Shown here: piece after piece, positions 3,205-61,702 of the stretch
How positions within the stretch are numbered: the stretch's first letter is position 1
How the letters are laid out: each line of letters opens with the position of its first letter
Origin: Haloterrigena salifodinae
GTDB lineage: Archaea; Halobacteriota; Halobacteria; Halobacteriales; Natrialbaceae
DNA: 64,000 nt
Reading direction: 5' to 3'
NCBI RefSeq assembly: GCF_003977755.1
Contig: NZ_RQWN01000001.1
Coordinates: forward strand, 310,001-374,000
Program-made: the position numbers and the translations under genes
The notes under the pieces: model-generated
Told to the model about the DNA's origin: nothing
Databases searched by the model: none
The model's input: the letters and a program-made list of their open reading frames with translations, nothing else

Positions 3205-3542
3205 GCCGTCCGGATCGCCGCGGACCGCAGTTGTGCTCCCGAGCAGCCAACGGTAGACGGTTCGTCGGAATAGGTCGTGAGTAACGATCTAGTCACGGCC
3301 GAAAGCACAGCGAGAACACGCTCTCCGATCCGGGACCGCGTTCGATCGCGTGCGGATGTGAAAAACGCCGAGTAACTCGTCGTAGGGCCGTTTCATACGT
3401 CGGTCTCGCGAACCGATGCCGTCGCGTTAGCCGTCGGTTAGCAGACGCATATCGGCGAAACAGTTCTATTGATTAATGCCCGAATCTGCCGACGAGTGAG
3501 TCGCTGGGGACGGGCAACGTGCCTCGGTGTGCTAACTGAACT
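3205..3542. other. Intergenic region
   Basis: No gene is supported here. An AT-rich element at 3469-3478 (TTGATTAATG) lies 65 bases before the ATG at 3543 and may be that gene's TATA box. Confidence 0.4.
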
Positions 3543-4175
3543 ATGAACCAACGAACCGCGATGGCGCTGACGATCGGACTCGCGGCAGCGGCGGTCGTCG
3601 CCGCGGGTGCAACGGTGATCGCTGCACCCGGCGACCCCGTAAGCGATTCGACCGAAAACACATCAGAAACCATGACAGAAACCGAATTCTCGTGGGGTAC
3701 GGTAATCCACGAAACCGACGCCGAAACCGGCGACACCAACGTCGAAGTGATCGTCGACGCCGACGATGACGTTTCGATATCGACGATAACGGCCCCCAAT
3801 GCGACGGATATGCACGACGAGGAAGCGACTGCGGACGGTGCAGCCGTCGAGTCGTTCCCCTGGGGTGCAGTGATCCACGCGACCGATTCCGACACCGGTG
3901 CGACCGATATCGAAGTGATCGTCGACGCCGATAATGACGTCTCGGTTTCCGTGACGTCGGTCTCCGAAAACGGCGCTCAGACGTCGACATCGTCCGTTAC
4001 GTCCACGAGCGAAACGAGCGAGAGCGGGACGAGCGTCTCGCAGTCGACCGTTTCGTCGACGACGGTCTCCAGCTCGTCAGTGACCAGTAGCTCCACCGAC
4101 GTCACGCAATCGTCGAACTGGACCGATGACGAATCGATCGAGATCGATATCGATACCGAGACGGAGGACGACTAA
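3543..4175 (+). CDS. Secreted Ser/Thr-rich protein with a duplicated domain
   Basis: 210 residues. Residues 1-28 form a signal peptide or N-terminal anchor (long Ala/Val core, ending VIAAPG). The body holds two copies of a ~32-residue unit, near 49-80 and 103-135: FSWGTVIHETD...TNVEVIVDAD and FPWGAVIHATD...TDIEVIVDAD. The shared W-G-x-V-I-H core and E-V-I-V-D-A-D strand look like a small beta-structure. Residues ~136-190 are a Ser/Thr-rich stretch of the kind that is O-glycosylated in haloarchaeal surface proteins, followed by an acidic end. There is no C-terminal membrane segment. I do not recognise the family. Its position next to the curlin-like genes suggests an extracellular role. Confidence 0.75.
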   Translation: MNQRTAMALTIGLAAAAVVAAGATVIAAPGDPVSDSTENTSETMTETEFSWGTVIHETDAETGDTNVEVIVDADDDVSISTITAPNATDMHDEEATADGAAVESFPWGAVIHATDSDTGATDIEVIVDADNDVSVSVTSVSENGAQTSTSSVTSTSETSESGTSVSQSTVSSTTVSSSSVTSSSTDVTQSSNWTDDESIEIDIDTETEDD

Positions 4176-4232
4176 CTCGAGCGGATACGCCGCTCCGGGA
4201 TGTGGCTTCCGAGCGCCGCTGATTCCGATTTT

Positions 4233-5627
4233 CTAGTGGCCCTGTTCGTCCAGCACCGCTCGCTCCGCACGGCGGGTGACCTCGCGGATCGGAACGTCGG
4301 TCTCGCGCGCGACCGCCAGCGCGTCGTCGTGCTCCGCGCTCACGTCGTACATCTCGCCGTCCGCGTCGCTGGCGATTTTCACGGTCACCTCGTAGGTTTC
4401 GCCGTCGATCTCGAGGGCCACCGTCTCGAACGCCCGATTCGCGATCCACCGGTGGGTCGCGCCGGCGTCCCGCACGCCTAGCGTTCCGGTCTCTTCGGCC
4501 AGCGCTCGAGCGACCCGTTCCCGATCCGCGGGCTTGCAGATCACCTTCACGAGGTGGCCGGGGCGGGACTTCTTCATCGTCGCCGGCAGAATCGAAACGT
4601 CCCGCGCGCCCGCGGTGGCCAGCGTCTCCTGCAGGCCGCCCAACACCTCCGGCGTCGCGTCGTCGAGGTTCGTCTCGAGGACGGCGATGTCGTCCTTCAC
4701 GAGTTCCCCCTGCGCGTCGCCGACCAGGACACGGAGAACGTTCGGGTGGGGATCGAGGTCGTAGCCGCCGGCACCGTAGCCGACCCCGCGGAGATCGAGC
4801 GAGGGCAACGAGTCGACGCCGTCGGCGAAGTGGCCCAGAATCGCCGCGCCGGTGGGCGTCAGCAGTTCGGCGTCGACGGGGCCGCCACGAAGCGGCCAGT
4901 CCGCTCGCTCGGCGATCTCGACGACGGCCGGCGTCGGGACGGGATACTCGCCGTGGCTCATCGAGACGCTGCCGCCGCCCGTCGCGAGCGGCGTCGTGAC
5001 GATCCGATCGGGCTCGAGGTCGTGGACGAGCAGGGCGGCACCGACCACGTCGGCGATGGCGTCGTCGGCGCCCACCTCGTGGAAGTGGATCTCCGCTATG
5101 GACTCGCCGTGGACGCTGGCCTCGGCCTCGCCGAGTAGTTCGAAGATGGCGAGTGCGTCGCGTTCGACCGCCGGCTCGAGGTCCATCCCCGCGACGATGT
5201 CGCGGACCTCGCGGTAGCTCCGGTGGGGGCCGTGTCCCTCGGCGCGGACGTCATCTCCGTCGGAATGAGCGTGAGCGTCCTCGTCGGCGTGAGTGTGTCC
5301 GTCGTCGCCGTGCTCGTGTGCGTGGTTATGGCCGTGCTCGTGTGCGTCGTGGTCGGTATCGCCGTGGTCGTGACCGTGGCCGCCGTCGCCGCTGGACTCC
5401 CCGTCGCCGTCGTGCCCGCCGGGATCCGCCGCCGAATCGTCGGTCAGGAACACGTCGACCGTCGTCGACGAAATGCCGCACTTGACCGTCTCGTCGATTT
5501 CGTACGCCACCGCGAGGTCGTCCGTCACGGCCTCGAGGGCGTCGGGATCGGCGCCGGCATCGAGCAAGGCGGCGAGGATCATATCGCCGCTTGCGCCCAT
5601 GCGGCCGTCGAACGCGAGGAGTTGCAT
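4233..5627 (-). CDS. larC: LarC-type nickel insertion protein (DUF111 family)
   Basis: 464 residues from MQLLAFDGRMGASGDM, the conserved family N-terminus; a longer in-frame start at 5792 would add 55 residues unlike the family. LarC proteins insert nickel into the pyridinium-bis-thiocarboxylate nucleotide to make the NPN cofactor used by lactate racemase and relatives. Conserved stretches visible are the N-terminal GASGDM, the AEIHFHEVGA(D)DAI motif, a TPTGAAIL segment and NLDDATPE. A His/Asp-rich linker (DNA ~5250-5410, residues about 75-125) holds more than a dozen histidines and probably binds or stores Ni2+. It is one continuous frame, unlike the frameshifted larC1/larC2 of lactobacilli. 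No larA, larB or larE is in the window. Confidence 0.9.
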   Translation of the reverse strand: MQLLAFDGRMGASGDMILAALLDAGADPDALEAVTDDLAVAYEIDETVKCGISSTTVDVFLTDDSAADPGGHDGDGESSGDGGHGHDHGDTDHDAHEHGHNHAHEHGDDGHTHADEDAHAHSDGDDVRAEGHGPHRSYREVRDIVAGMDLEPAVERDALAIFELLGEAEASVHGESIAEIHFHEVGADDAIADVVGAALLVHDLEPDRIVTTPLATGGGSVSMSHGEYPVPTPAVVEIAERADWPLRGGPVDAELLTPTGAAILGHFADGVDSLPSLDLRGVGYGAGGYDLDPHPNVLRVLVGDAQGELVKDDIAVLETNLDDATPEVLGGLQETLATAGARDVSILPATMKKSRPGHLVKVICKPADRERVARALAEETGTLGVRDAGATHRWIANRAFETVALEIDGETYEVTVKIASDADGEMYDVSAEHDDALAVARETDVPIREVTRRAERAVLDEQGH

Positions 5628-5875
5628 AGCTAGGTCGCCGGGTGGAACGATCAAAAAGGCATCCTCTCGGCGCGACTCCCATGGAGGACGATCGGTGCCG
5701 CGCCGCGTTCTCGAGGCGGTGTCGGTACCACCAAAACCGACCGATGCCGGTACATCTATGTGCGCTGCCGTATCAGTTAGATATGGTATCAACTAGCACA
5801 GGCAACGACGTAGGCTAGCAAAAAACCTATCCGCTCACGAAGCGGAACCACTGACATCGCCGTCCATCCCGAATC

Positions 5876-8107
5876 ATGAACGAAGTTCAACTGGAGGTTG
5901 CGAAGGCGTACCCGAACGACTCGGGTCGTGGTATCGCCCGACTCGACCCGGACACGCTGTTGCATCTGAAGCTGAGTCCGGGCGACATCATCGAAATCGA
6001 AGGCGCCGACACCACCGCCGCGAAGGTGTGGCGCGCCGACCGGCAGGACTGGAACACCGATACGGTCCGCATCGACGGGTTCACCCGTCAGAACGCCGAC
6101 GTGGGGATCGGCGAACGCGTAACGATCCGCAAGGCAGAAGCCACGAAAGCGGATAAGCTCACCCTCGCACCCCCCGAGGAGGCGTCGGTCCAGTTCGGTT
6201 CCGACGCCGCCGGCATGGTGAAACGACAGATCTTGAAGCGGCCGGTCGTTGGTCGCGACATCGTCCCGGTCATGTCCTCGACGAACCATCCGTTCATGCG
6301 GTCGCCCGGCCAGGCGATTCCGCTCATCGCCGTCGAGACGGAACCCGAGGGCGTGGTCCTCATCACCGAGGACACCGACGTCGAGCTTCGCGAGGAGCCA
6401 ATTTCGGGCTTCGAGAAGACCGGCGGCGGCATTACCTACGAGGACATCGGCGGTCTGCAAAGCGAGATCCAGCGGGTCAGGGAGATGGTCGAACTCCCGA
6501 TGAAACACCCGCAGATCTTCAAGAAGCTCGGCATCGAGCCCCCGCAGGGCGTCCTGCTCCACGGGCCGCCGGGCACCGGGAAGACCCTACTCGCGAAGGC
6601 CGTCGCCAACGAGACCTCCGCGAGCTTCTTCTCGATTGCGGGGCCGGAGATCATCTCGAAGTACTACGGCGAGTCCGAACAGCAGTTACGGGAGATCTTC
6701 GAGGACGCGACCGAGGAGTCGCCGTCGATCATCTTTATCGACGAACTCGACTCCATCGCACCCAAACGGGAGGACGTCACCGGCGAGGTCGAGCGCCGCG
6801 TCGTCGCCCAGTTGCTGACCATGATGGACGGTCTCGAGTCCCGCGGTCAGGTCATCGTCATCGCGGCGACCAACCGCGTGGACTCGGTTGACCCCGCACT
6901 GCGCCGGCCGGGCCGGTTCGACCGCGAGATCGAGATCGGCGTCCCGGACGAAGTCGGCCGCGAGGAGATCCTCCAGATCCACACCCGTGGGATGCCCCTC
7001 TCTGACGACGTCGACCTCGGCCACCTGGCCGACGAGACCCACGGCTTCGTCGGCGCCGACATCGAGTCGCTGACGAAGGAAGCCGCGATGAAGGCCCTGC
7101 GCCGGTACCTCCCCGAGATCGATCTCGACGAGGAGGACATCCCGCCGAGCCTGATCGACCGGATGATCGTCAAGCGCCAGGACTTCCGCGGCGCCTTGAA
7201 CGAGGTCGAGCCCTCGGCGATGCGGGAGGTGCTCGTCGAACTCCCGAAGATCTCCTGGGACGACGTCGGCGGCCTCCACTCCGCCAAGGAGCAGGTCCAG
7301 GAGTCCGTCGAGTGGCCCCTCTCGAACCCCGAGCGGTTCGACCGGCTGGGGGTCGATCCGCCAGCCGGCGTCTTGCTGTACGGGCCGCCGGGCACCGGGA
7401 AGACGCTCATGGCGAAAGCGGTCGCCAACGAGACCAACGCGAACTTCATCTCGGTGCGCGGTCCGCAACTCCTCTCGAAGTGGGTCGGCGAATCGGAGAA
7501 GGCCATCCGGCAGACCTTCCGCAAGGCGCGGCAGGTCTCCCCGACGGTGATCTTCTTCGACGAGCTCGACGCGCTCGCGCCGGGACGGGGCGGTGAAACC
7601 GGCTCGAACGTCTCCGAGCGAGTCGTCAACCAGCTCCTGACGGAACTCGACGGGCTCGAGGAGATGGAGAACGTGATGGTCATCGGCGCGACCAACCGAC
7701 CGGACATGATCGACCCCGCGCTGCTGCGCTCGGGGCGGTTCGACCGGCTGGTCATGATCGGCGAACCCGACGTCGACGGCCGCGAACGCATCCTCGAGAT
7801 CCACACCGAGAACACGCCGCTGGCCGCGGACGTCACGCTGCGCGAGATCGCCGAGATCACCGACGGCTACGTCGGCAGCGACCTCGAGTCGATCGCCCGC
7901 GAGGCGGCCATCGAGGCGCTGCGCGAGGACGAGGAGGCCGACATCGTCGAGATGCGCCACTTCCGGCAGGCCATGGAGAACGTTCGGCCGACGATCACGG
8001 ACGACATCCTGGACTACTACGAGCAGATCGAAGAGGAGTTCCAGGGCGGCGGATCGGGCGGCCCCGGACCGACGGGTCGCCGCGACAGTCGGATCGGCTT
8101 CCAGTAA
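5876..8107 (+). CDS. Cdc48/VAT-type AAA+ ATPase
   Basis: 743 residues, the usual length for archaeal VAT/p97. Residues 1-180 form the N-domain (double-psi barrel plus four-stranded part, starting [19 protein letters not shown]). The D1 ring has Walker A GPPGTGKT at ~230-237 and Walker [11 protein letters not shown] near 285-294. D2 has Walker A at ~503-510 and Walker [11 protein letters not shown] near 560-570. Both have the sensor N in ATNR and the arginine-finger region RPGRFDR/RSGRFDR. The protein unfolds ubiquitin-like-tagged or damaged proteins for the proteasome and other pathways. The C-terminus is a Gly-rich tail. It is monocistronic with a terminator at 8129. Confidence 0.97.
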
Positions 8108-8128
8108 TCGCACCCTCGGGCTGGACGC

Positions 8129-8138
8129 GTTATTTTTT
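8129..8138 (+). terminator. T-rich terminator after cdc48
   Basis: GTTATTTTTT lies 22 bases after the stop codon of the AAA+ ATPase gene, a typical archaeal T-tract. Confidence 0.5.
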
Positions 8139-8285
8139 GCGGTTTTCGATCGACGAGCAGTCGTTTCTCGGAGCGGCGTCTGAACTGAGCCTCACTATCG
8201 ATGGGATACCAGCCGATAGCTACTCGAGTCTCTCTCTCGACCCGCGCCGTACGCCGGCCGCGGGAGTTTCCGATCGGTCGTCGGC

Positions 8286-9218
8286 TTACTCGCTCGACGA
8301 TCGACCCAGATCCAGCGCGTGTCCGAACTCCTCGCGCAGCGCCCGTCGCTTGACGAGGACGAAGCCGACCGCGATGAAGCCGAAGCCGGCAGCCGTCGTC
8401 GCGTCGACGACTTCCCCAAGGTAGAGCCAGCCGACCAACGCGGCGACGATCGGCGCGACGTAGGAGACCATGTTGATCTCGACGGCGCCCAGCCGCTCGA
8501 GCAGATCGAAGTAGAGCAGAAAGCCCAGCGCGCTGGCGACCAGCGACAGGTAGCCCAGCGCGCCGAGCGCTTCGGGATGGGTCCACGTCGACGGCTCGAG
8601 CGGTTCGCCGAGCACCAGACTGACGCCGTGCATCAGGAGGGCGCCGCCGATCATCGACCAGGCCTCCATGGTCTCGATCGGGAGCGAGGCGTCGATCCGG
8701 CGGGTGAGGACGCTCCCCAGTCCGAAGGCGGCCGCCGCACAGAAGACGAGCCCCGTCGCGACGGCGTCGACCGACAGCAGGTTCGAGGGATCGGGGCGCG
8801 CGACGACCGCGACGCCGAGCAGGCCGACTAGGAGGCCGCCGACGCCGACTGGGGAAAGCGCGTCCGAGGGGACGAGCAGGCGAGCGAACCCGGTGGTCAG
8901 CACCGGCGAGAGGCTCACGACGATCGCGGCCGCGGCCGCCGTCGTGTGTTGCTGGCCGACGAAGAGGAAGGCGTGGTAGGCCGCGATCAACAGGACGGCA
9001 CCGACGGCGACCAGCGACCACTCGCCGCGGTCGCGGGGTCGCCAGTCGTCGACCGCGACAGCGGCGTAGGCGAGCATCAGGACGCCCGCGATGTCGTACC
9101 GAAAGGCGGCGAACAACACCGGCGGGAAGTGGTCGAGGCCGGCGCTGATCGCGACGAACGCGGAGCCCCAAACGGTTGCGAGCGCGAGAAAGCGAACGAG
9201 ATCGCGAAAGCGGCTCAT
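8286..9218 (-). CDS. EamA (DMT) family membrane transporter
   Basis: 310 residues with ten predicted membrane helices arranged as two five-helix EamA repeats. The start shows the family pattern (LATVWGSAFVAISAGLDHFPP, FAAFRYDIAG), and the second repeat has LLYFDLLERLGAVEINMVSYVAPIVAALVGWLYLGE, a hallmark of this family. Members export amino acids, nucleosides or other metabolites; the substrate here cannot be deduced. The gene stands alone, with the regulator at 9354-9719 upstream on the same strand but a gap of 135 bases between them. Confidence 0.92.
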   Translation of the reverse strand: MSRFRDLVRFLALATVWGSAFVAISAGLDHFPPVLFAAFRYDIAGVLMLAYAAVAVDDWRPRDRGEWSLVAVGAVLLIAAYHAFLFVGQQHTTAAAAAIVVSLSPVLTTGFARLLVPSDALSPVGVGGLLVGLLGVAVVARPDPSNLLSVDAVATGLVFCAAAAFGLGSVLTRRIDASLPIETMEAWSMIGGALLMHGVSLVLGEPLEPSTWTHPEALGALGYLSLVASALGFLLYFDLLERLGAVEINMVSYVAPIVAALVGWLYLGEVVDATTAAGFGFIAVGFVLVKRRALREEFGHALDLGRSSSE

Positions 9219-9353
9219 ACCGGCCGTCTCGTCGGCACGGTTCTACGCGTTTCGATTCGAAACGGGGTCGACGAACGGGATCGAAAAAGATCGGACGCTG
9301 TACGGAATGGACGGCCGCTGTACGACGAGTTGCGTTACCGCGATGTTCGAGGG

Positions 9354-9719
9354 TTAGAGCGACGGCAGTTCGCGGATCTCCGGCTCTTCCTCGGTTTGCC
9401 GAAACTGCTCGAGTAGCGGCTTGATATCGTCGAACCCGTCAGCGAGGACGATGTCGCCGTTGCGGAGGTCGTACTCGATGATGTCGTAGTCGGCGAGTCG
9501 CGGGAGGTGGTTGTGAACCAGCGAGACATAGACCCGCTGTCGGTCCTCCTTGTCGATCTCGACCGGGTGGACGTCGAACTCCCAGGCGGCGATCCGGGTG
9601 ACGACGTCCTCGAGGTGGGCACCGCGGTTCTCGGCGAGCTGGTAGAGCAGGTATCGACGTTCGGACTCGGCGAGAAGAGAGCAGGCGGCTTCCATCCGGG
9701 TGGCGTTCGCGTCGTTCAT
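9354..9719 (-). CDS. DUF7344-type winged-helix regulator
   Basis: 121 residues. The layout is that of a common haloarchaeal family: a helix with E-S-E-R-R-Y-L-L-Y-Q-L, an ED-V-x-x-I segment, then V-x-V-S-L-V-H-N-H-L-P-R-L-A-D-Y-D-I-I-E-Y and a strand (NGDIVLADG). The H-x-H-L-P-x-L block is the recognition helix region of a winged HTH. These proteins are taken to be transcriptional regulators of unknown target. A TATA box 20-29 bases upstream of the ATG predicts a leaderless transcript and supports the start at 9719. Confidence 0.85.
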   Translation of the reverse strand: MNDANATRMEAACSLLAESERRYLLYQLAENRGAHLEDVVTRIAAWEFDVHPVEIDKEDRQRVYVSLVHNHLPRLADYDIIEYDLRNGDIVLADGFDDIKPLLEQFRQTEEEPEIRELPSL

Positions 9720-9737
9720 ACTCGATCAAGGCGTCCA

Positions 9738-9748
9738 GCCATATTACA
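9738..9748 (-). promoter_or_regulatory. TATA box of the DUF7344 regulator gene
   Basis: On the minus strand GTGTAATATGG is centred about 25 bases upstream of the ATG at 9719, the spacing at which archaeal RNA polymerase would start at or very near the start codon. Confidence 0.5.
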
Positions 9749-10144
9749 CCTACTGCCAACACAGATAGGGGCGATCGGCTGAACAGTTCGCTCGTGCCGT
9801 CCCAAAACCCGCCGATGGCGGGCCGGTATCCGATATCACCGACTGATAGCACCAGGCGATCGGAGCCGACCGACGTCGGGCGGCTCGACCGATGACGCCG
9901 ACGCTCACGAACCCGGGACGACCGTCCGCTCGAGATTTCGCGGTTCGGGACCGGTTGATTCCCGAATACCGCTCCCTAAGCACCGTGATCACGGCGGCAA
10001 GGTGGGGACGTTCTCTCCGGATGTGCTGCCGTCAACGAGACGGATTCGTTCTACGGTTGTTACAGTAGTACACAGTACCGCAGGTATGTGGTATATGTTA
10101 TCGCGGACAGAATAGTTAAGTTGGCGAGTGGCTTAGTCGTTCGT
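9749..10144. other. Intergenic region
   Basis: No gene is supported. AT-rich elements near 10087-10101 (GTGGTATATG) and 10110-10118 may be the promoter of the RNase H-like gene at 10145; an in-frame ATG at 10088 lies within this element and is therefore unlikely to be the start. Confidence 0.4.
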
Positions 10145-10783
10145 ATGGCCGCTCACGGCCGGTCCAACCTGCGGGACCTGTTCGACGAGTCGCCCACACC
10201 GCACATCGCCCACCCCCCGCGCACCCATCACCGGGACTTCTACGTCGCCACCGACGGCTCCTTCCGGGAGTCCGGCGGCGGACTGGGCGCTGTTATCGAA
10301 ACGCGCGACGGCACCCGCGTCGCCCGCGTCGCGACCGCGGACGCGCCCCCGGACAACAACGTCGCCGAGTATCGGGCGCTCCATCTCGGTCTCGACGTCC
10401 TCGCCGCTCGCGCGCCGCGAGACGCCTGCGTCGGCGTGCTCGTGGACCACGACTCGTTGGCCAGCAACGTCAACAGCACTATCCTTGCGACGAACCATCC
10501 GGACGGCAAATCGCCGCGTCCGGTCTCGATCCCGCCCGCGTCGCACAACCACTGGCGCGGTATCGAAGCCCGGCTCACCGGGTTCGGCGAGGTCAGGGCC
10601 GCGCGCATCGACAGCGGACAGAACCCGGCCCACCCACTCGCGAACGCCCCCGATCGCTACCGACACGTCAACCAGGAACCCGAGCGCTGCGTCCTGCCGG
10701 AGACGCCGGAACCGGCCGCCGCTGAGTTCCCGCCGCCGTCTCGAGCCGATCGTAACGGCGGGAGCGGGCGCGCCTCGGACTGA
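10145..10783 (+). CDS. RNase HI-like protein
   Basis: 212 residues from MAAHGRSNLRDLFDE. The RNase H fold is indicated by YVATDGSFRESGGGLGAVIE (first catalytic Asp near residue 37), NNVAEYRALHLGLDVL (catalytic Glu) and VDHDSLASNVN (Asp of the SDS-like motif). RNase H enzymes of this archaeal type I group cut RNA in RNA/DNA hybrids or act as related nucleases. The segment after the third Asp is longer and more Pro/His-rich than in bacterial RNase HI. The usual final N-x-x-A-D motif appears as GQNPAHPLANA, so the fourth acidic residue is not obvious and full activity is uncertain. Confidence 0.8.
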   Translation: MAAHGRSNLRDLFDESPTPHIAHPPRTHHRDFYVATDGSFRESGGGLGAVIETRDGTRVARVATADAPPDNNVAEYRALHLGLDVLAARAPRDACVGVLVDHDSLASNVNSTILATNHPDGKSPRPVSIPPASHNHWRGIEARLTGFGEVRAARIDSGQNPAHPLANAPDRYRHVNQEPERCVLPETPEPAAAEFPPPSRADRNGGSGRASD

Positions 10784-10855
10784 CGCCGTCCTCCGCGTCC
10801 GCGACGGCGGCGCGGAACCGCCACCGTTATCTCGTCGTTCCGGCGACCACATTCT

Positions 10856-11320
10856 ATGAGTCTTCGCGTCGCGGTCGCCGCCCCGTTCATCCAGAACGGC
10901 ACCCGGCGCCTCCAGGAAAACGAGTTCGTGGTCGCGCTCTCGCTCGACCGCGACTGGTTCTCGCCCGACCAGTCGAAACGCCTGATCGACGTCGCCACCC
11001 AGGACGGCCTCCTCGAGCGCACCGACGACGCCCTCGAGGCCACGTTCGATCCCGGCGAGGTGACCGTCCCCGACGAGTTCGTCCCTGACGAGGAACTCCT
11101 ACAGGAGCGCTCGGCGTTCGAACGCGTCCTCGACGCGCTCGTCGCCGAGGGGATGGAGAAACACGAGGCGGTCGGCGCCATCAACCAACTGCAGGACGAC
11201 CTCGGCCTGACCATCGAGGCCGCCGCGGTCGTCTACGCCCGGCGGGAGGGCGTCGACGTGAGCGAACTGGTTCCCGTCGCGCGGGAGGCCCTCGCCGACG
11301 CGGAAGCCGAAGGGCGTTAG
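10856..11320 (+). CDS. DUF2240 family protein
   Basis: 154 residues, soluble. It matches a conserved haloarchaeal family: N-terminal LRVAVAAPFIQNGTRRLQENEFVVALSLDRDWFSPDQ, a short winged-helix-like region (Q-S-K-R-L-I-D-V-A-T-Q-D-G-L-L-E-R), and a helical C-terminal half (EKHEAVGAINQLQDDLGLTIEAAAVVYAR). Biochemical role is unknown. The next gene starts 24 bases downstream, so the two may be cotranscribed. Confidence 0.8.
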   Translation: MSLRVAVAAPFIQNGTRRLQENEFVVALSLDRDWFSPDQSKRLIDVATQDGLLERTDDALEATFDPGEVTVPDEFVPDEELLQERSAFERVLDALVAEGMEKHEAVGAINQLQDDLGLTIEAAAVVYARREGVDVSELVPVAREALADAEAEGR

Positions 11321-53080: not shown

Positions 53081-53640
53081 TCTGTTTCGTTCGTCGCCTT
53101 CCAGGGGTGGCAGCTGCTGTTCTACGATCAGGAGAGCATCGCCGACCCGCTCGAGACGATCCCGAAGGCGATCTACGTCTCGGTCCCGGTGGCGGTGTCG
53201 ATCTACATGCTCGTGGCGGTGGTGACGTACAATCTCGCGCCCCAAGCCGTTCGAAACAGTCCCCATACCGCGCTGGTCGAGGCCGCCTCGGCGATCGGCG
53301 GGGCGGTCGGGCTCGCGAGCGCGGCGGCGATCGTCATCTCGCTGTCGGCGCTGTTCTCGACGGGGAGCGCGATCAACGCGACGCTGTTCTCGACGGGCTA
53401 CTTCGCCAAGGGAATGCTGTCCGACGACCTGCTGCCCGATCGGGCGGGCGACTCGAGCGAGAGCGGCGTTCCCGAACGCACTCTGCTGATTCTCGGGGTC
53501 GTGACGGCGGCGTTCACCGCCTACGGAAGCCTCTCGGCGATCACCGCGTTCGCCTCGCTTTCGTTCATCGTCGTCTTCGGCGCGATGAGCGCGCTCGCGT
53601 TCACCAAGCGCGACGCCCTCTTGCCGACGCTCGCCGGCCC
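53081..53640 (+). pseudogene. 5'-truncated APC-family permease remnant
   Basis: The frame opens within a membrane protein, starting VSFVAFQGWQLLFYDQESIADPLETIPKAIYVSVPVAV, and continues through STGSAINATLFSTGYFAKGMLSDDLLP and LTIL-type helices to FASLSFIVVFGAMSALAFTKRD. These align with the last ~190 residues of the intact APC permease at 59740 (FVSFEGWQLLFYDQDQFDDPDETLAKG..., STASAINSTLFSEALFAKNLISDDILP, FASLAFIVVFGSMSALALTVRD). The first ~210 residues, including the start, are missing. There is no stop before the CNNM gene, so the frame runs into it. No promoter or start precedes the fragment, which is most likely not functional. Confidence 0.75.
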
Positions 53641-53683
53641 AGACCTGAGACGTCTGGGCGCCGTACCAGGTGAACGGGACACG

Positions 53684-58078: not shown

Positions 58079-59743
58079 ATGCGACGACGAACTCTCGGAC
58101 GCGACAATATCTCGACCGGAACCGATTCTCATGGGGGAGCGAACGCAGAGAACACGGGGGACGTCCAGAGGCGGCCGACGCGACGCGACCTGCTCGCCGG
58201 TATCGGTGGCGCGAGCGCGACTCTGTTGGCCGGGTGTTCGACGACGGTGGGGACGGGACCCGCTCCGACGCTCCGGATCGGCACCCTCCGACCGCCGATC
58301 ATGCTCGATCCGATCACGGCTGAATCGATCGGCTCGGAACAAGCCGTCGAGCGCGTCTTCGAGGGCCTCTACGCGTACGGCGAGGGGACCGACGTCGTCC
58401 CCGCGATCGCAGACGGCGAGCCGACGACCGAAAACGACGGGCGCGAATTCGTCGTCGAACTCGACGACGGCGCTCGGTTCCAGAACGACCGGGACGTGAT
58501 CGCCGAGGACGTCGTCTATTCGTACACCGCGCCGCTCGAGGAGGACGCGCCGACGGCGTGGCGGGTGAGCCCGTTCGAATCGGTCGAGGCCGAGGACGAA
58601 CGCACCGTCCGGTTCACGCTCTCGGAGCCGTATCCGGCGCTCGAGCACGCGCTCACGCATCCGATCGTGCCCCGGCAGGAGCGCGAGGACGACAGGGAGG
58701 CGTTCGCCGCGAACCCAATCGGCGCCGGTCCGTACGAGGTCGCCTCGTTCAGCGCGGAGAAGAAGGCCACGTTGATCCGCTGGGACGACTACTGGGGCGA
58801 GACCCGACCGGCGATCGAGCGCCTCACGCTGGCGTACGTCGAGTTCCCGATGACCCAGCTGACCAGCCTTCGGACGAATCGCAACGATATGATCGAGCCG
58901 GTCTCGCCGCTGATCGTCGATCACGTCGGCGACGTCGCGAACGCGTCGGTGAAGCGCCAGCAGGGGTACACGTCGTTTTACTACGGGTTCAATCTGAACG
59001 AGGGGCCCACGACCGACCCGCGAGTCCGCGAGGCGATCAGCTACTGCATCGACCTCGAGAAGGCGGTCTCCGAGTTCATCGAGCCGATGGGACAGCGCCA
59101 GTACGGCCCGCTGCCGCCGCAGGTGGCCGAGGAGTGGGACATGCCGACCGACGAGTGGACGGACCTCGCCAACGAGAAAAACGTGGAGCGGGCCAAGAAC
59201 CTGTTCCGCGAGGCCGACGCGGCAAGCGGCCAGCTTCGCATACTCACGTCGATGGATCCCAAACACAAGGAGTTAGGCGAGGCGCTCGCCGGCGGACTTC
59301 GGGACGCCGATCACGGCGCCCTCGTCATCTCGAAGCCCGAAACGAAGTTCGTCGAACGGTACGTCTCCGGTTCCCAGCGCGATTACTCGGTGTTCGTCGG
59401 CGAGATCAGCGGTACCCCCGATCCGGACTCGCACCTCTACCCGACGTTTCACGAGAACATGACGGGCGTGACGAACGGGACGTTCTATCGCGAGGACGCG
59501 GTCATGAACCGACTCGAGTCGGCTCGACGGACGGACGATCGCGAACGGCGACGAGAGCTCTACGAGGCGGCAGTCACGAAACTGCTCGAGGACCGGGTCT
59601 GCCTGCCGATCTGCTCGTTCGAGAACAGTTTCGCCGTGGACGCGGGCGTCGAGAACTTCCGCGTCCATCCGATCTCGAAAGTCAATCCGCGGCTCGCGGG
59701 GGAGCAGGGAGTCGTGACGATCGACGGAGGTGATGGCTCGTGA
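58079..59743 (+). CDS. Tat lipoprotein, family 5 solute-binding protein
   Basis: 554 residues. A Tat signal with lipobox occupies residues ~35-52 (TRRDLLAG ... LLAGC), so the protein is a lipid-anchored extracellular receptor. The rest has the peptide/nickel-binding (SBP_bac_5) layout: LRIGTLRPPIMLDPITAESIGSEQAVERVFEGLYAY, EFVVELDDGARFQNDRDVIAEDVVYSY, NPIGAGPYEV, FYYGFNLNEGPTTDPRVREAISYCIDLEKAV and a C-terminal lobe. The stop overlaps the start of an APC permease gene by four bases. No ABC permease or ATPase is nearby, so the binding protein seems to be paired with a secondary transporter. Confidence 0.93.
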   Translation: MRRRTLGRDNISTGTDSHGGANAENTGDVQRRPTRRDLLAGIGGASATLLAGCSTTVGTGPAPTLRIGTLRPPIMLDPITAESIGSEQAVERVFEGLYAYGEGTDVVPAIADGEPTTENDGREFVVELDDGARFQNDRDVIAEDVVYSYTAPLEEDAPTAWRVSPFESVEAEDERTVRFTLSEPYPALEHALTHPIVPRQEREDDREAFAANPIGAGPYEVASFSAEKKATLIRWDDYWGETRPAIERLTLAYVEFPMTQLTSLRTNRNDMIEPVSPLIVDHVGDVANASVKRQQGYTSFYYGFNLNEGPTTDPRVREAISYCIDLEKAVSEFIEPMGQRQYGPLPPQVAEEWDMPTDEWTDLANEKNVERAKNLFREADAASGQLRILTSMDPKHKELGEALAGGLRDADHGALVISKPETKFVERYVSGSQRDYSVFVGEISGTPDPDSHLYPTFHENMTGVTNGTFYREDAVMNRLESARRTDDRERRRELYEAAVTKLLEDRVCLPICSFENSFAVDAGVENFRVHPISKVNPRLAGEQGVVTIDGGDGS

Positions 59744-61092
59744 GCGACGACAACGGCGGCGGCGATAACGGCGGTGACGACGGAAGCGGATTCGGCGTCG
59801 GAACGGCTGTCGCGCTGGGCGTCGGCGGCATCGTCGGCGGCGGCATCTACGCGGCGATCGGTATCGTCGTGGCCGCCGCGGGGATTCTGACGTGGTTCGC
59901 CTACAGTCTGGCGACCGTCGTCGTCTTCTGCTGTGCGTACTCGTACATCAAGCTCAACGACGCGACCGAGAGCAGCGGCGGCTCTGTCTCCTATATCGAG
60001 GAGCTGTCGGGCAGATCGACAGTGGCCGGCGTCGTCGGCTGGACGCTCGTCGTCGGCTACATCGGGACGATGGCGATGTACGCCTACGCGTTCGGGATGT
60101 ACGCGCAGATGATGATCGGTGTCGAGTACGTCTTCGGACTCCCCATCCGACAGTTCCTCTCGATCGGTATCGTCGCCGTCTTCGTCGGACTGAACCTCCT
60201 CGGTGCGGGCTCGTCGGCGTCGGTCGAGCGGTTGCTCGTGTTCGTGCAGGCGGGGATCATCGCCGTCTTCGGCCTCATCGGACTCTGGTACGGCGCGGCG
60301 AACTTCCAGTTGCGACTCGGGCTCTCGCAGCTCGGGTTCAACCCGGTTCTCGCGGCGTCCGTCGGGTTCGTGTCGTTCGAGGGTTGGCAGCTCCTGTTCT
60401 ACGATCAGGACCAGTTCGACGATCCCGACGAGACCCTCGCGAAGGGCGTGTTCATCTCGATCCCGATCGCGGCGGCGATCTACATCCTCGTCGGCTTCGT
60501 CATCACGACGCTGTTGCCCGAGGAGGTGATCGCCGCCCAGCCCGAACCGGCGTTGCTCTACGGCGCCCTGCTCATCTCGAAGTGGCTCGCACTGGCGGTC
60601 GGCATCGCTGGACTCGTCTCGACGGCCAGCGCGATCAACTCGACGCTGTTCAGCGAAGCGCTGTTCGCGAAGAACCTCATCAGCGACGACATCCTCCCCC
60701 ACGAGATGGGCGATCCGGACGCCGACGCTGCGCCGAAACGGGCCGTGCTCGTCATCGGCGCCCTGACGGCTGCGTTCACCGCGCTCGGCAGCCTCGAGGC
60801 CGTCGTGGAGTTCGCCTCGCTGGCGTTTATCGTCGTCTTCGGGTCGATGAGCGCGCTCGCGCTGACGGTGCGCGATTCCGACGACGTGGACGTCAACCCA
60901 ATTCCGCCGCTGATCGGCGCGATCGGCTCGGCCGCGTTCTTCGTCATGCTGACGTGGTACCTCTACTCACAGCTCCCCGCGGTCTTCTGGCTGGTCGTCG
61001 TCATCGCCGTGCTCGTTTTCTCGGTCGAGGCGATGTACTTCAAGCGTCAGGAGCTCTCGGAAGGCGTTCGAGCCGTCGAAAAGCGAATCTGA
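59740..61092 (+). CDS. APC-superfamily amino acid permease
   Basis: 450 residues from GTG at 59740, preceded by GGAGGTGA. Twelve membrane helices. VALGVGGIVGGGIYAAIGIVVAAAG is the typical substrate-binding unwound helix 1 of APC transporters (G-x-G-G-G/S-I). FVSFEGWQLLFYDQDQFDDPDETLAKGVFISIPIAAAIYIL and STASAINSTLFSEALFAKNLISDDILPHEMG are family motifs. Start codon and stop codon of the upstream solute-binding protein overlap (GTGA). A truncated paralogue of its C-terminal half lies after secY. Substrate unknown, perhaps an amino acid or dipeptide bound by the upstream lipoprotein. Confidence 0.92.
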   Translation: MSDDNGGGDNGGDDGSGFGVGTAVALGVGGIVGGGIYAAIGIVVAAAGILTWFAYSLATVVVFCCAYSYIKLNDATESSGGSVSYIEELSGRSTVAGVVGWTLVVGYIGTMAMYAYAFGMYAQMMIGVEYVFGLPIRQFLSIGIVAVFVGLNLLGAGSSASVERLLVFVQAGIIAVFGLIGLWYGAANFQLRLGLSQLGFNPVLAASVGFVSFEGWQLLFYDQDQFDDPDETLAKGVFISIPIAAAIYILVGFVITTLLPEEVIAAQPEPALLYGALLISKWLALAVGIAGLVSTASAINSTLFSEALFAKNLISDDILPHEMGDPDADAAPKRAVLVIGALTAAFTALGSLEAVVEFASLAFIVVFGSMSALALTVRDSDDVDVNPIPPLIGAIGSAAFFVMLTWYLYSQLPAVFWLVVVIAVLVFSVEAMYFKRQELSEGVRAVEKRI

Positions 61093-61268: not shown

Positions 61269-61702
61269 ATGCAAGAACTGAACATCGCTCTCGTCGCGCT
61301 CGGCGGACTGACGTTGCTTCTGCGCCTTGTCGCCGGGCTCTTGGAGAACCGATCGTCGTCCTCGAGCAGTTCGCCCGCCTCACGATGGGGCTGGCCGTCA
61401 TGGCCGCTGCGCTGCGGATCCCGAAGCGGTACTTCCGGACGAACAACGTCGCGATGGCGGCGGTGCTCGTTCCCGGACTCGTCGCCATGTGGCTCGTCAG
61501 CGGCGGCCTCGCCTACGCGCTGCTGGACGTCCCGCTCTGGATCGCGCTGCTCATCGGAGCGATCGTCACGCCCACAGACCCGGTGCTGACGGGGACGATC
61601 GGCACCGGCCATCTACGCTCGAGTACGGTCCGTCTTCGCGAAGTCCTACACGTTGCCTGTGAAACGGCCGTTGGCGACGTCGGTCCTCATCGATCGGTGT
61701 GA
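61269..61702 (+). pseudogene. Broken Na+/H+ antiporter (CPA1/NhaP type)
   Basis: ATG at 61269 gives QELNIALVALGGLTLLLRLVAGLLENR, an antiporter N-terminus. At about 61342 the sensible reading moves to another frame, GEPIVVLEQFARLTMGLAVMAAALRIPKRYF, with several dozen expected residues missing between the two. This continues as MWLVSGGLAYALLDVPLWIALLIGAIVTPTDPVL (the T-P-T-D-P-V-L core with the ion-binding Asp) and then leaves the family at GTIGTGHL, stopping at 61702. Both a deletion/frameshift and a 3' truncation are thus seen; more than 250 residues of a normal antiporter are absent. Confidence 0.8.

Follow-up and report, generated by a model that had tools for sequence, protein, structure and literature searches.

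A solute-binding protein (SBP) of family 5 and a permease of the APC superfamily are encoded by two overlapping genes in a haloarchaeal genome of 4.96 Mb, and the same pair is found in other haloarchaea. The genes were studied in a stretch of 64,000 nucleotides (contig C1, 310001–374000) which we will call the window. They are inherited together, they are adjacent in both possible orders, the binding protein carries a lipoprotein signal and no genes of an ABC importer accompany them. The pairing is more than chance, because the two genes are adjacent in 22 out of 22 genomes of the window's family which have them, their 4-bp overlap is conserved and their adjacency is kept when the order is reversed. 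They form a real and conserved unit, which probably has a function. The reading which we prefer, with a probability of about 0.6, is a two-component importer independent of ATP; the docking of the two proteins, the transfer of ligand, the ligand class and the energy coupling are parts of this reading that we infer.

The gene pair and its conservation

The SBP gene is found on the forward strand in positions 58079–59743 of the window and codes for 554 amino acids (P0001). The protein matches PF00496 (SBP_bac_5) with 196.8 bits, the gathering cut-off being 32.4, over positions 2–364 of the 368 in the model. It has a Tat motif (RRDLL) and a lipobox (LAGC) in its N-terminus, with C53 as the predicted anchor, as in a Tat-exported lipoprotein. 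The permease gene follows on the same strand in positions 59740–61092 and codes for a CAT/ApcT-like protein of 450 amino acids (P0002). It matches PF13520 (AA_permease_2) practically from end to end, with 107.3 bits against a cut-off of 27 (model positions 2–423 of 427). Both reading frames are uninterrupted. The TGA stop codon of the first gene shares bases with the GTG start codon of the second one in a GTGA overlap of 4 bp (59740–59743, forward strand), an arrangement of translational coupling. A Shine-Dalgarno-like element, GGAGGTGA, is found before this start codon (59727–59734, forward strand). The family 5 Tat lipoprotein, the APC permease and their GTGA overlap had been reported in the first-pass annotation and we read them in the same way. 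Its statement that no ABC genes lie nearby is also correct: HMMs of DppB, DppC and the ATPase detected no ABC gene in the window, nor in 10 kb upstream and 8 kb downstream of it.

The window also contains two truncated transporter remnants. In positions 53089–53664 (forward strand), directly after secY, there is the C-terminal part of an APC permease of the unpaired type, with 49% identity to residues 210–380 of P0002; it has no N-terminal half and continues in frame into a CNNM/CBS-domain protein. The other one, just downstream of the pair in positions 61385–61702 (forward strand), is part of a Na+/H+ exchanger and covers positions 38–125 of the 375 in PF00999.

Orthologs of the SBP, with at least 61% identity, are present in 22 of the 125 genomes of the window's family. 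The same 22 genomes have the ortholog of the APC permease (at least 79% identity), always adjacent to the SBP: neither gene is found alone. In a sample of 391 genomes from the whole class there are further pairs in the same order, with identities down to 46% for the SBP and 63% for the permease, and also pairs in the reversed order (APC-SBP), with an SBP identity of about 37–46%. A draw of 247 genomes throughout the phylum (E 1e-100) gave matches confined to the window's own order. The carriers include Halopiger xanaduensis (pHALXA01), Natrinema versiforme (pNVE414), Natrialba aegyptia, Halosolutus gelatinilyticus, Halorussus halophilus, Halorussus vallis, Haladaptatus halobius and Halomarina sp. 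BND7. The annotated copies are labelled as 'ABC transporter substrate-binding protein' and 'APC family permease'. No fusion of the two genes was seen.

At 40 loci we read up to 18 kb of the neighbourhood, and at 60 more about 9.5 kb; the genes were classified by HMMs. The genes next to the pair vary among genomes and some pairs are found in plasmids, so that SBP and permease travel as one unit. No permease gene of an ABC importer was found beside the pairs in these neighbourhoods, save in one divergent operon which has its own SBP. The overlap RTGA is present in 26 of the 29 pairs with the SBP-APC order (the window and 25 of the 28 others) and in three out of eight pairs with the reversed order; an overlap of 4 bp also occurs in another APC-SBP pair, in a Halomarina plasmid. 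The exact element GGAGGTGA is not kept in most orthologs: only the overlap of 4 bp is. Two loci are possibly decaying pairs. In one of them (L131 in genome G214, 7201–10223) Tyr replaces the lipobox Cys and the match to the permease ends prematurely; in the other one (L143 in G270, 7079–8649) both genes are truncated.

Phylogeny of the two proteins

The SBP tree has 85 rows: 37 belong to the clade of paired proteins, 34 are found in ABC operons, 13 have neither DppB nor APC adjacent and one comes from an APC-SBP-ABC cluster. All the 37 proteins in the paired clade (SH-aLRT 100) adjoin an APC permease, with no unpaired members, and at none of the 37 loci do DppB, DppC or ATPase genes share an operon with the paired SBP. 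The clade splits into the SBP-APC order, which we call clade 1 (n=29, SH-aLRT 99; SBP identities from 86% down to 47% to the window SBP), and the APC-SBP order, clade 2 (n=8, SH-aLRT 98). Since both orders are subclades of a single paired clade, the gene order has changed while adjacency was kept. The first-pass annotation would have been refuted by a pair unique to this genome: as the pair is conserved, translationally coupled, monophyletic and not accompanied by ABC genes, such is not the case.

The relatives outside the paired clade are found either in ordinary SBP-DppB-DppC-ATPase operons or standing alone. Among the 13 proteins with no adjacent DppB or APC gene, two, L108 and L147, are of the nik type and occupy the far end of an ABC operon. 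Ten stand-alone family 5 SBPs have neither ABC nor APC genes nearby (L178, L179, L181, L182, L185, L188–L190, L196 and L199). By eye, several stand-alone proteins appear in two recurring contexts: one is next to a ferredoxin-like gene, the other has a carbonic-anhydrase-like gene on one side and a PhoU-like gene on the other. The APC-SBP-ABC cluster (L140 in G242, 3266–11136) has APC, SBP, DppB, DppC and two ATPase genes in a row on one strand. We do not consider it as a true pair: its SBP falls among the ABC-type proteins and it represents a separate juxtaposition.

The partner permeases form one clade for each gene order, with a support of 100 in both cases. A single clade of the two APC groups is not rejected by the AU test (p 0.574), and the constrained tree is 2.7 log units better. 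The distances among SBPs and among permeases are strongly correlated (r=0.94 for all pairs, 0.91 within clade 1; none of 2000 permutations was as high). Any two neighbouring genes which are inherited together would be expected to co-occur and to give such matching trees. A Halosolutus genome of the window's family (G016) clusters with representatives of other families in the SBP tree as well as in the APC tree, which suggests a joint transfer of the two genes.

Possible mechanism and its alternatives

In the window SBP, 23 residues separate the anchor Cys from the first conserved Asp-Pro. The length is the same in every scored member of clade 1 (25 of 25) and 23–27 residues in clade 2; in ABC-linked relatives the median is 46 (21–56). 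The short tether would fit a fixed partner in the membrane, although some ABC-linked SBPs have an equally short one. According to the reading which we prefer, the lipoprotein would be anchored outside the cell by this tether and would capture a scarce solute, amino-acid-like or small peptide-like. The APC permease dedicated to it would then receive the solute and import it by the rocking-bundle mechanism of the LeuT fold, with an ion gradient or exchange as the driving force. The first-pass annotation had already suggested a binding-protein-dependent secondary transporter. The data strongly support the genetic side of this suggestion, a conserved, translationally coupled, monophyletic and ABC-free pair, with the conserved linkage of an SBP and a secondary permease that is found in this functional class; we infer the hand-over of the ligand.

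The permease has its best solved relative in ApcT (MJ0609, E 8.5e-20); it also matches TIGR00909, below the cut-off of this model. A LeuT fold is probable from this similarity. In all the 29 permeases of clade 1 (the window and its orthologs in loci L107–L133 and L143) the lysine in TM5, K158 in ApcT, is replaced by Gln (Q170 in the window), and the TM6 Gln of unpaired relatives is replaced by Glu (E214). The TM5 lysine is kept in the eight permeases of the reversed order and in all 22 unpaired relatives. In BasC this lysine supports a high external affinity: the equivalent mutation K154A reduces Vmax and the apparent affinity on the external side by a factor of about ten (PMC6472337). In GkApcT the lysine is proposed to take the place of the Na2 sodium (PMC5803215). 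Q170 and E214 may have altered the ion coupling or the substrate; coupling or affinity might have changed in the permeases of clade 1, as would be fitting if the affinity came from a partner protein. We also considered the change from Lys to Gln as a hallmark shared by all pairs, but it is found in 29/29 members of one clade, with Lys in 8/8 of the other. As clade 2 keeps the lysine, the TM5 change is no general rule for the pair.

The strongest rival of this importer is an ABC importer encoded elsewhere in the genome. The lipoprotein would serve it in trans, the APC permease would separately move the same or a related solute and the operon would only regulate them together. At least one homolog of DppB, the cluster C ABC permease, is indeed present in the 36 genomes with a pair that were tested (36/36). 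Sharing has a precedent in Pseudomonas aeruginosa, where several family 5 SBPs (DppA1–A5) share one Dpp permease (PMC4206461). The family itself has stand-alone SBPs, and three examples retain 0.91–0.96 of the positions that are invariant among the ABC-linked ones. However, all the SBPs of the paired clade adjoin an APC gene and never a co-oriented ABC permease gene, their overlap is conserved and their adjacency has outlasted the reversal of gene order. Furthermore, in a pair-bearing genome with a single cluster C permease (DppB; G071) the operon of this permease has its own, more distant SBP. We judge an ABC importer in trans to be rather unlikely.

Two other explanations are less likely than the ABC importer in trans. 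The lipoprotein could be a subunit which assists or gates the permease (a stabiliser, a regulator or an outer lid) and does not hand over any ligand. The same genetic linkage would be found, and the LAT transporters of the APC family do have an extracellular ancillary subunit (PMC6472337), but the lipoprotein covers nearly the whole family 5 model and has no heavy-chain-like domain, so that we find this role improbable. It could also be a sensor which reports the external solute to a signalling partner, the permease being the uptake route. The haloarchaeal lipoproteins BasB and CosB report solutes for chemotaxis, and a bacterio-opsin-activator-type regulator is found near the pair in Haladaptatus, as are response regulators in Halorussus. 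However, these regulators are not conserved as neighbours and no transducer gene is annotated beside any of the pairs inspected; a sensor appears very improbable.

Several other features of the two proteins were considered and put aside. Paired SBPs keep about 0.7 (0.68) of the residues invariant in ABC-linked proteins, versus about 0.9 in stand-alone SBPs. This does not point to a specific loss of ABC-docking residues, since L148, an ABC-linked SBP which has diverged to the same degree, retains 0.71: the loss corresponds to divergence only. In the permease, five of the 20 pair-specific positions are found in the outer loop EL4 (p 0.003), but we do not consider them as a docking patch because control clades of unpaired APCs are equally or more concentrated there. 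AlphaFold2 models of both proteins were too poor (mean pLDDT 39 and 33), as the alignment was shallow, and were set aside. The ligand anchors of DppA are R383 and D436 (PMC12136057). They have no counterpart in the alignment of the window SBP and its ABC-linked relatives, so that analogy with DppA does not reveal the ligand.

Comparison with known transport systems

No description of an SBP-APC pair was found in the literature searched, which is weak evidence of absence given its incomplete coverage. If the two-component importer is real, it would illustrate how a binding protein may move from an ATP-driven to a gradient-driven importer, and the annotation of haloarchaeal genes as 'ABC transporter substrate-binding protein' would change. 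APC permeases have the LeuT fold and a rocking-bundle movement; for this reason a working SBP-APC pair would contradict a recent proposal on the elevator mechanism. According to it, some feature of this mechanism may be required for the use of binding proteins, and further classes are called for as a test (PMC12344293).

The nearest outside relatives of the binding protein are found in Dpp/Opp/Nik operons (cluster C), whose binding proteins belong to the same Pfam family PF00496. However the pair lacks the two permease genes (DppB and DppC) and the ATPase gene which accompany the SBP in such importers, and it has an APC permease in their place. The permease shares its family and probable fold with transporters of the ApcT/GkApcT/CAT type, which act with no binding protein; the window's clade differs from them by Gln instead of the TM5 lysine (K158/K191) and Glu instead of the TM6 Gln (E214). 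An APC permease with an extracellular partner is also found in the SLC7/SLC3 heteromeric transporters. The heavy chains are extracellular ancillary subunits of the animal LAT transporters; they are glycosidase-like and not an SBP, whereas the partner of our permease matches PF00496 only.

TRAP and TTT systems resemble the pair more closely in function, as they have a secondary permease dependent on an extracytoplasmic binding protein, but their permeases and binding proteins belong to other families. TRAP is defined by a DctP/TAXI SBP and a DctQM permease, TTT by a TctC-type SBP and a TctAB permease; the two proteins of the pair have their only Pfam matches in other families. The mechanism of TRAP permeases is of the elevator type, and the same is believed of TTT permeases. 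These two were the only secondary transporters known to use binding proteins before TAXI-GltS of Bordetella pertussis was described, where the coupling was inferred mainly from genetics (PMC12344293, 2025). The pair resembles TAXI-GltS in the kind of genetic evidence and in several features: in both cases the gene of an SBP lipoprotein overlaps that of a secondary transporter, both gene orders are found and there are no native partner genes near (PMC12344293). TAXI-GltS also has known fusions and high-affinity ligand binding. The families are different too. By their Pfam matches the two proteins are neither a TAXI SBP nor a GltS (ESS) permease: TAXI-GltS joins a TAXI SBP with an elevator-like Na+/glutamate symporter of the ESS family, and here a cluster C SBP of family 5 is joined with an APC permease of the LeuT fold. 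Binding-protein-dependent secondary transport is already known from TRAP, TTT and TAXI-GltS; the pairing of a family 5 SBP with an APC permease would be a new variant of it.
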